From Thysanoteuthis rhombus (Eukaryota; Mollusca; Cephalopoda; Oegopsida; Thysanoteuthidae), in NCBI GenBank assembly GCA_963457665.1, contig OY735211.1, forward strand, positions 35,083,747 to 35,147,746: a DNA stretch of 64,000 nt, written 5' to 3'. The notes beneath the pieces were generated by a model. That model had not been told where the DNA came from. It ran no database searches and worked only from the letters and a program-made list of their open reading frames with translations. Positions 15,002 through 63,960 of the stretch are shown here, piece by piece. The first letter of the stretch is position 1. Each line of letters opens with the position of its first letter. Both the position numbers and the translations under genes were made by a program.

Positions 15002-15310
15002 AATATACATGATTATAAATTGCATTATATTACATAGAAACTCTGATTTGAAATGTCATTGCACAGTGAATGTGCCATTTGGCCTTGACATTGTAAATAG
15101 AATAAACAATTAAAGAAAATGAGGCTGATGCAGGAATCATACCTGTGGCTGATAGGGTAGCCGCTTCAACATAGCGTTGCTCTTACCACTGAGCTAAACA
15201 GTCGAGGGTAATGTAAAGGCCCAAATAACTGTTTCAACTCCATATTCCCATCTTGCTTATCCATGGTCTATATCTGTTCAGTTTGTTTCTTTCAACACGA
15301 CAATTATGTC
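14997..15310 (-). repeat. tRNA-derived SINE S1, near full-length
   Basis: The most complete S1 copy. On the minus strand it has a 5' block (AAACAAACTGAACAGATATA, then GTTGAAACAGTTATTTGGGC), then a tRNA-like head at about 15122-15203, then an unrelated 3' body ending in a TA repeat. The head has an A box TAGCTCAGTGGTAAGAGC, an anticodon-type stem CGCT/AGCG around the loop ATGTTGA, a GGC/GCC variable arm, and a B-box-like GGTATGATTCC. The tRNA part lies about 100 bases inside the repeat, not at its 5' edge. Confidence 0.85.
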
Positions 15311-21944: not shown

Positions 21945-22334
21945 CTTACAGATGAAACTTACCTGGCACAGGTTTCTGGCCCAATCTTCGGGAGCAAAGT
22001 GTAGTATCTGTTCCACGGCATAGACCGAGGAGTCGGTACTGACACTTGCCCGTTGAGTGGGCCGGAGATTGTGTGCAGGGTATCAAAGACCGAGTGCGCC
22101 GGTGCAAACGTTGGCCAATGAGGTTACACTGAGGCTGCGTTTGCTACGCGCAACGGGAGGCCTTTGGACTTGTCCTTAGGCACTCCCATCATTACTCGGC
22201 CCAGCTTTCGCAGGTAACTGCGTCGGCTGGAGCCAATTTTTGGCGGTAAGGTACTATTTCTTCCCACGTTAAGCCCGACCTTGTGTCACATATTGCTGTG
22301 GTGGGACAGTGATTAAATAGACTTACAGATGAAA
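21945..22334 (+). mobile_element. chimeric snRNA-derived retroposon (U1/U2/U4-like)
   Basis: An insert of about 364 bases is flanked by a perfect 13-bp direct repeat, CTTACAGATGAAA, at 21945-21957 and 22322-22334. The insert is GC-rich against AT-rich surroundings. It opens with ACTTACCTGGCA, the 5' end of U1 snRNA (splice-site-pairing part). AAAGTGTAGTATCTGTTC, matching the branch-point region of U2 snRNA, follows at about 21996-22012. A U4-like block at about 22094-22150 reads GTGCGCCGGTGCAAACG, then GGCCAATGAGGTTACAC and TGAGGCTGCG. A second U4-like block at about 22221-22246 (GTCGGCTGGAGCCAATTTTTGG) includes an Sm-type site. The tail near 22250-22320 is not recognised and has no A-run. 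The direct repeats argue for LINE-type target-primed insertion of a composite RNA. Alternatives are a template-switched one-off, or a SINE with an snRNA head. Confidence 0.75.
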
Positions 22335-34565: not shown

Positions 34566-34860
34566 AAGAATTCGGTGTCGAAACTGTTATTTGGGCCTTT
34601 GCATTACTGACGGTTGTTTAGCTCAATGGTAAGAGCAACACTATGTTGAGGCGGCAATCCTATCAGTCACAGGTTCGATTCCTGCAGCAGCCCCATTTTT
34701 TTTTTTTTTAATCATTTATTCTATTTACATTGTCTAGGCTAAGTGATACATTAACTGTGTAATGACTGAAGATCATTTTAAATAGGAGTTTCTGTATAAT
34801 ATGATGCAATTTAAAATCATATATATATATGTATATAAATATATATAAAAATAATGTAAA
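34566..34860 (+). repeat. tRNA-derived SINE S1, plus copy
   Basis: Contains AACTGTTATTTGGGCCTTTG, the tRNA-like head, a T-run, then TTATTCTATTTACATTGTCT, the S1 body and a TA-rich tail. The B box GGTTCGATTCC is perfect and the A box TAGCTCAATGGTAAGAGC is good, so Pol III transcription is possible. It ends about 130 bases before the first recognised coding exon of the dehydrogenase. Confidence 0.85.
34612..34695 (+). ncRNA. tRNA-like head of SINE S1
   Basis: The acceptor arms GGTTGTT and AGCAGCC pair over all seven positions with two G-T wobbles, and the 3' arm is followed by CCA. The D arm is GCTC/GAGC. The T arm is CAGG/CCTG around TTCGATT. The anticodon-type loop is ATGTTGA, giving GTT in the anticodon position. 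The anticodon stem is weak here but is CGCT/AGCG in the 15.1 kb copy. The variable region is long (about 14 bases), unlike most tRNAs that carry GTT. I read it as a SINE promoter, not a working tRNA gene. Confidence 0.7.
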
Positions 34861-62765: not shown

Positions 62766-63608
62766 TGGTTTGGCAGACAGTGAGTGAGAGAAGACCTTGG
62801 TGCAGTTCTCCTATCTTTCCTCGAACGGAACACGAGGAAGTACAAGGGGTTTTCAATCGTAGTAAAAGACCAATGAAACTAATATACTATTTGAAACACT
62901 TAGTCGGTACGTTTGGAAAAAGAGTATACGTGCATTAACGGGTTTTGGCTGTTTGTATATAAAAATGCAACAAAATTATATTTTGGGACCATGCATATGC
63001 TTGCCTGAATGTATGTACTTCTGTTTAGGAAATGTTTGTAAGGCGCATCAAATGGAAAAAAATGTCAATAAACTTACTGGATACACCAGAGAGAAAAATG
63101 TTCTGTTCTCTGCGTGATAAAAGATGATGTATTGTTTTGAGTAGCGAAGTGTCATGCTAATGTTGAAATGCCAAACATTTATTCTCATGTAAAAACGAAA
63201 ATTACATGAAAAATATGGCTCATGGCCTAAATTCGGGGAATGGGGAAGGTATATGTCATCACTATCTTAACATTGACTTGGCTTGTCACATTTACTAGAC
63301 GGTCTTTCCTCATTCGTTTCACCTCAAAATAGCATTGATACTACAATAGCATGTAGTCTACCGGACCCTGTTATTGGTCTTTGTAGGTCGCAGTTCCTCA
63401 TATTTTTTGCTAAGATCAAACTTCCCCGACTTCGATATCAAACTGATTGGCACTGATACTGTAGTCTGGACCCAAACCCTCTGTGTGTTCTTAGGTCAGA
63501 AATGAATTGATGAATTAGTATCTACTTGAGTGTGGGTTATGGCTTCTCCTTTGACTTGAATTAAATTGTTTTTTCTTTACACTACGACCCTATTTCAAGC
63601 TTTTAAAC
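62766..63608. other. no gene seen
   Basis: AT-rich spacer. No exon or RNA recognised. Confidence 0.4.
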
Positions 63609-63609
63609 A

Positions 63610-63690
63610 TAGGGGACATATTAGATATTAGGTTAATAATAAAAAGAGCTGATACTACACTTTTTTCTTAGCAAAAAAGGCCGATCTTCT
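63610..63690 (-). pseudogene. U2 snRNA 5' half, pseudogene
   Basis: The minus strand reads AGATCGGCCTTTTTTGCTAA, then AAAAAAGTGTAGTATC, then TAATATCTAATATGTCCCCT. It tracks roughly the first 80 bases of U2 snRNA, including the GUAGUA branch-point-pairing core and the following stem IIa and Sm-proximal text. The GGC pairing partner in stem I is damaged and bases are changed in the AAGATCAAG stretch. It follows an A-run of 11-12 at 63691-63702 that separates it from the chimeric unit. Probably a truncated retrocopy. Confidence 0.7.
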
Positions 63691-63702
63691 TTTTTTTTTT
63701 TG

Positions 63703-63893
63703 AGGCCCCAGGACGATTCCTATGCGCTGAGTAATGCCGAGCCTCAGTGATCCCTCATCGGCCACGACTTGGCACCGGCGCACCTGGGCTGATCGATCTC
63801 TCAGCCAAAAGGCTGCCAAAGTACAGCTCAACTTTGCAGCCCGAGGGCGTCAAAGAACATATACTACACTTTGATCTTAGCCAAAAGGCCGAA
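63703..63893 (-). mobile_element. second snRNA chimera (U2/U2/U4-like)
   Basis: On the minus strand, from high to low coordinate, the first part is a U2-like head (CGGCCTTTTGGCTAAGATCA then AAGTGTAGTAT; 63856-63892). Next comes about 40 bases of spacer. A second U2-like stem-loop I follows (GCCTTTTGGCTGAGAGATC; 63791-63815). Then a U4-like block at 63724-63784 reads GTGCGCCGGTGCC, TGGCCGATGAGG and CACTGAGGCT. It ends in a GC-rich stretch and an A-run of 11. The U4-like block closely matches the one in the 22 kb element, including GTGCGCCGGTGC, and the U2 core matches too. So both are copies of one composite family. No direct repeats were identified here. Confidence 0.75.
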
Positions 63894-63904
63894 AACCACA
63901 TTTT

Positions 63905-63960
63905 ACTGCGGACCACTGATACAACCCGGAGGACCGCACGCAATAGTAGTACCATCGCAT
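63905..63960 (-). repeat. possible tail of an upstream chimera unit
   Basis: The minus strand reads GGTACTACTATT, then GTTGTATCAGTGGTCCGCAG. This parallels the tail of the 22 kb element (GGTACTATTT, then GTGTCACATATTGCTGTGG). If real, two units lie head to tail. The match is weak and short. Confidence 0.35.

Follow-up and report, generated by a model that had tools for sequence, protein, structure and literature searches.

Probable origin of the U1-derived head of a cephalopod SINE by insertion into U1 genes

How did the first nucleotides of U1 RNA come to stand at the front of a mobile element that also carries sequences related to other spliceosomal RNAs? The question is raised by a GC-rich insert (51–58% GC, against roughly 30% in its surroundings) in the window, that is, the whole 64,000-nucleotide stretch of DNA analyzed here. 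As the initial annotation had described, the insert of about 364 bases lies between identical repeats, which are exact over 13 bp, and lacks an A-tail (Table 1). The annotation had also recognized in it the U1 5′ end, a piece of U2, and two U4-like blocks, and had proposed that template switching during reverse transcription joined several snRNAs into a product that then became mobile. We consider it likely, with a probability of about 0.82, that the insert is one of the dispersed copies of a young SINE, that this SINE is moved by a LINE of snRNA genes, and that it gained its U1 head through insertion into a U1 gene and use of the U1 promoter.

The insert and its snRNA-derived parts

The snRNA-related parts of the insert were compared with the host's own U1, U2, and U4 genes, which are present in the 2.73-Gb genome. 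The head of the family, ATACTTACCTGGCACAGG, is identical to host U1 nt 1–18, with a score reached by none of 2000 dinucleotide shuffles, and the 19-nt stretch CAAAGTGTAGTATCTGTTC is identical to host U2, again with a score that 0 of 2000 shuffles reached. Both parts had been correctly read from the sequence, and the element is a SINE with an snRNA-derived 5′ head consisting of U1 nt 1–18 and 19 nt of U2. The claim of two U4-like blocks held for one of them: the segment at 22114–22146 resembles the 5′ stem-loop of host U4, weakly in the young-family consensus, in which 67 of 2000 shuffles reach the score, and its assignment stands through the older family described below. The second block was unsupported, its Sm-like run reading CCAATTTTTGG in the insert, AATTTGTG in host U4, and ATTTTTC in the older SINE family.

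No U1, U2, or U4 was found above the Rfam thresholds in the window or in the insert, and the insert alone yielded nothing above threshold, its U4 score of 16.6 bits falling short of the gathering score of 46. Alignment to covariance models, which had been suggested as a check, fails on its own for U1 and U2 because the pieces present are only short. An ordinary SINE with a fortuitous resemblance to snRNAs would account for these Rfam results and for the weakness of U4 in the young consensus, yet the U1 and U2 matches exceed all 2000 shuffles and the former is accounted for by the residence of the SINE in U1 genes (see below), so that chance is a scarcely credible source of the similarity.

The whole insert folds better than its shuffles (z −6.05), but in a consensus fold of old and young SINE copies only 12 of 49 pairs have changed on both sides. 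A run of T acts against Pol III transcription, and the internal T5 run of the SINE would argue against full-length Pol III transcripts. The 3′ end of the SINE resembles the 3′ box of the host snRNAs weakly: when its last 26 nt were shuffled 5000 times, 0.6% of the shuffles scored as high, as did 1.8% of 1000 shuffles of the whole. Neither the fold nor this resemblance is taken as support here.

Table 1. Features of the SINE insert and of an older relative in the window
Feature	Position	Strand	Basis or remark
Target-site duplication (TSD), 5′ copy, CTTACAGATGAAA	21945..21957	+	Exact 13-bp repeat
SINE insert, 364 bp	21958..22321	+	2 differences from the consensus of the copies read
U1-derived head, ACTTACCTGGCACAGG, identical to host U1; first A shared with the repeat	21957..21972	+	
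Older U2-derived head, remnant; 21995–22013 identical to host U2	21973..22013	+	
Region resembling the 5′ part of U4; U4 nt 5–60 in the consensus of the older family	22095..22146	+	
Sm-site-like CCAATTTTTGG with T5 run; differs in the older family	22233..22243	+	
Predicted 3′ hairpin	22292..22313	+	Last 39 nt folded alone; the whole-insert fold pairs this stretch differently
3′ end TAAATAGA, resembling the AAATAAATA ends of older SINEs and the LINE	22314..22321	+	
TSD, 3′ copy; first bases CTTAC	22322..22334	+	
Old U2-headed relative sharing the U4-like body, 64% over 188 columns	63702..63876	−	

A young dispersed family and its older relatives

A search of the 2.73-Gb genome with the insert yielded 46 matches among the best 40 of 3642 candidates scored, mostly full length and with identities of 93–100%. 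The junction between the U1 head and the SINE, allowing at most one mismatch, occurs at 185 places in the genome (99 + 86), and the reversed control occurs at 0 + 1. The element is short, dispersed, and multicopy with shared ends, as expected of a SINE, and the proposal of a mobile family with snRNA parts and LINE-type insertion, together with the prediction of further copies sharing the junction, is borne out. The 185 junction places and the missing A-tail do not agree with a single chimeric snRNA retropseudogene of the LINE-1 type. A TSD was reported by script in 37 of 41 insertions, several of these being uncertain since they span only 6–8 bp or overlap the element. The 46 copies read differ from their consensus by a median of 0.82%, with at most three substitutions in 27 and none in 2; this sample leans young because its members were those scoring best against the window copy, and the family is perhaps still active.

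An older family was retrieved using as query a diverged relative that lies beside one of the young copies, giving 58 matches among the best 40 of 5159 candidates scored, 30 of which were made into loci. Its consensus, about 440 bp long, has a U2-like head at the 5′ end and AAATAAATAG at the 3′ end. Under a scoring softer than that applied to the young family, none of 2000 shuffles reached the score of either its U2 head (~42 columns) or its U4-like segment, which covers U4 nt 5–60. The U1 head is absent from all 30 aligned copies, and U1 similarity in the consensus is not significant, its score under the same softer scoring being reached by 367 of 2000 shuffles. The second copy at locus L010 is 92.6% like the window insert and begins exactly at the end of the U1 head. 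It could be a remnant of a stage preceding the head, or it may be a mere 5′ truncation, because four young copies also start at positions 13–18.

Several further features of the older elements were observed. On the minus strand of the window, at 63400–63950, an old U2-headed element ends in an A-run that is followed by further U2-like fragments. Columns 288–309 of the older-family alignment (A1) form a hairpin whose loop contains ATTGCACT, similar to U1 stem-loop II; one of its pairs has changed on both sides in 5 sequences. The stretch is missing from the young family. Judged by eye, many older copies adjoin CA-rich DNA, with a C-rich stretch before the U2 head.

SINE and LINE residents of U1 genes

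Stretches from one U1 array, chosen by array spacing, led to a 6.7-kb non-LTR element that cuts a U1 gene after nt 18 and is then followed by a whole U1 gene. The element has an open frame of 734 aa, 594 aa of which were compared with Pfam and gave no match. Its ORF2 contains an AP endonuclease and a reverse transcriptase (Exo_endo_phos, 1e-10; RVT_1, 2e-30), the nearest solved structure being the LINE-1 ORF2 protein (E 1e-69). In this particular copy, ORF2 is frame-shifted near its end; besides this query, 24 scored copies among 46 matches are 98–99% identical and have unbroken frames of 1060–1153 aa. When coordinates were compared by eye, 8 of these 24 copies end 1.3–1.7 kb before a U1 gene, and of five 3′ ends that were fetched, one lies before U1, one in a U4 gene (L107), one in a U3 snoRNA gene (L109), and two in sequence unnamed by Rfam, one of which carries an snRNA-like 3′ box (L110; the other is L108). 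Judging from its predicted enzymes and fixed sites, the candidate partner of the SINE is a target-specific LINE of the AP-endonuclease type. The 3′ ends of the LINE and the SINE have in common only an AT-rich terminus resembling AATAAATA and, when each is folded by itself, a short hairpin, and since they share so little, the LINE is a candidate rather than a proven partner. The expectation that the missing A-tail would point to other insertion machinery agrees with the use of the same U1 site by this LINE, on which the SINE would depend.

A match to the SINE tail only, 78% alike, was traced to its locus, where no reverse transcriptase frame was found. A sister LINE, about 73% identical in ORF2 and with 1152-aa open frames, was observed at three places (L111–L113), in all of which a similar Rfam-unnamed sequence follows it. 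At L093 (662–853), the LINE 5′ UTR holds two units, each starting with a copy of the U1 head.

Insertion into snRNA genes has precedents. Keno and Utopia are non-LTR retrotransposons of U2 genes, Keno having an AP-like endonuclease, and these two, Dada-U1, and Dada-U6 are the only snRNA-gene elements named in a paper of 2015 (PMC4640811). The LINE described here shares with Keno and Utopia the site-specific insertion into snRNA genes and differs from them in occupying U1, U4, and U3 genes. No non-LTR element of U1, U4, and U3 genes was met in the literature searched, and as far as that 2015 list goes, the LINE adds these genes to the reported non-LTR targets. Dada-U1 elements also target U1 genes, but are DNA transposons with 6–7 bp duplications and use a U1 site other than that of the SINE and LINE (PMC3706591).

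Forty U1 genes were read upstream, a non-random set comprising L041–L044, one gene each in L105 and L106, 15 genes in array stretches, and 19 listed others; five more array stretches contained no complete U1 gene, one of them, L093, holding only the 18-nt remnant. Directly upstream of the 40 genes lies a LINE 3′ end in 9 cases, a SINE 3′ end in 4, and neither in 27, and the SINE and LINE residents occupy the same U1 site. At C47:22390460-22390943, the U1 promoter is followed by U1 nt 1–18, the SINE, and U1 again from nt 1, so that 18 bp are repeated, and the promoter matches its counterpart at an uninterrupted U1 gene in 95 of 97 positions. In the other three SINE residents, U1 nt 1–15 are joined to CTTTTCTGG; the two junctions, at nt 18 and nt 15, therefore represent at least two insertions. 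Among the copies read, the nt 15 junction was seen only in U1-resident ones, of which one stands directly behind a LINE and another behind sequence that, by eye, looks like the promoter belonging to a different U1 gene. Identity between the C47 resident and the dispersed consensus is 95.4%. No resident was found that could be the exact parent of the dispersed copies: the presumed founder junction, with up to 3 mismatches allowed, gave 0 matches, and the residents read end differently.

The following course of events is proposed. An older SINE line that already had the U2-derived head and the U4-like body would have sent a copy into a U1 gene after nt 18, with the first 15–18 bp of U1 ending up on both sides. 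The U1 promoter, a Pol II promoter, would then transcribe the resident, yielding an RNA that begins with AUACUUACCUGGCACAGG and continues into the SINE. The LINE enzymes would nick GGTAAG-like sites and copy the SINE RNA there, and dispersed copies with a U1 head, mostly adjoining CTTAC(C), would result.

Alternatively, the reverse transcriptase might have jumped from SINE RNA to U1 RNA, with the fused family entering U1 genes only later. The head starts exactly at the 5′ end of U1 RNA, end-to-end joins are seen in multimers (see below), and 5′ fusions by template switching are known for other LINEs. Several observations nevertheless speak against a jump of this kind: the C47 locus has the order that insertion gives, with 18 bp repeated; the second junction, at U1 nt 15, was found only in U1-resident copies among those read; and the LINE produces the same arrangement in U1. 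We therefore regard it as an improbable source of the U1 head. Because residents occupy the site used by the LINE, because of the order at C47, and because the older family is head-less, the head most likely arose by insertion rather than by template switching. For U1, the template-switching model of the initial annotation is consequently not supported, the C47 resident explaining a head that the older family does not have; it may still account for the U2 and U4 parts, which are older.

Junctions, multimers, and the choice of target

Excluding the head-less copy at L010 from the 41 insertions counted leaves 40 for the junction count. The 3′ flank of the SINE starts with CTTAC in 25 of the 40 and with CTTACC in 12, against a background of 0.0006 CTTAC per base in the flanks. 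Inspected by eye, the 25 CTTAC insertions have the motif on both sides in 12 cases and on the 3′ side only in 8 (L003, L006, L007, L008, L010, L012, L025, and L040, with L006 lying in a microsatellite and being ambiguous), the 5′ side being unclear in 5. The remaining 15 insertions have no 3′ CTTAC, and by eye the same other target is present on both sides in 11 of them. At the 3′ junction of the insert in the window, CTTAC can belong to the target or to the copied RNA. The eight 3′-only insertions suggest that the SINE RNA terminates in CUUAC(C), as would a transcript running beyond the end of a U1-resident copy, and that a target need match only in part; the 3′ flank of the RNA would in this way set the target of the SINE. 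At the other end, uncontrolled counts over the 33 insertions with a complete 5′ end give A before the SINE in 30, TA in 22, and ATA in 14, which fits an RNA starting with AUAC, that is, with U1 nt 1.

U1 pairs with 5′ splice sites, and the junction motif corresponds to the part of U1 involved in this pairing. Conceivably, the SINE RNA could be guided to its insertion sites by base pairing of its U1 head, either to GGTAAG DNA or to 5′ splice sites. The LINE, however, is itself found in U4 and U3 genes, where its sites lack the complete motif, and the CTTAC seemingly copied from RNA in the eight insertions (with the ambiguity of L006) points to the 3′ flank of the RNA and not to the head. Guidance by the head is accordingly very improbable.

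Three multimers of 2 to 4 units were found, each with one outer duplication. In two of them (L028 and L035), the upstream units are 97.5–98.6% like the C47 resident and 94–95% like the dispersed consensus, and these arrays were probably copied, as the identities indicate, from SINEs stacked in a U1 gene. In the third (L018), the upstream units are not of the resident type.

The SINE in U1 genes recalls R2-like elements, which are read from the promoter of the host gene: in both cases an element sits in a multicopy RNA gene and here, too, is probably read from the host promoter. The difference is that 18 nt of host RNA have here become fixed in dispersed copies. Another parallel is offered by SINEU, the crocodilian SINEs headed by U1- or U2-derived sequence that Kojima reportedly described in 2015 and that are said to have added heads repeatedly and to have a partner LINE of the Tx1 group. 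The two are alike, as described, in being SINEs with a head derived from U1 or U2. They differ in that U1-resident copies here show a possible route of head gain, with a LINE using the same site, and in that a single lineage has accumulated U2, U4-like, and U1 parts in layers. In the literature searched, outside which the SINEU paper lies, the origin and role of snRNA sequence at the fronts of SINEs are unexplained. The present case affords an unusually direct view of head acquisition in a U1-headed SINE, and because resident copies, dispersed copies, and the likely partner LINE share one genome, promoter capture is directly testable.

More tentatively, and with the odds somewhat against it, snRNA genes may serve as nurseries in which a SINE takes up the promoter and first nucleotides of its target, earlier those of U2 and perhaps U4 and now those of U1, the read-through CUUACC at the 3′ end of the RNA then pairing with nicked DNA and setting the next target. 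If so, a single insertion would change head, promoter, and target all at once. Elsewhere in the window, two tRNA-like Rfam matches, at 34612–34693 (+) and 15122–15203 (−), resemble each other and are perhaps heads of tRNA-derived SINEs.
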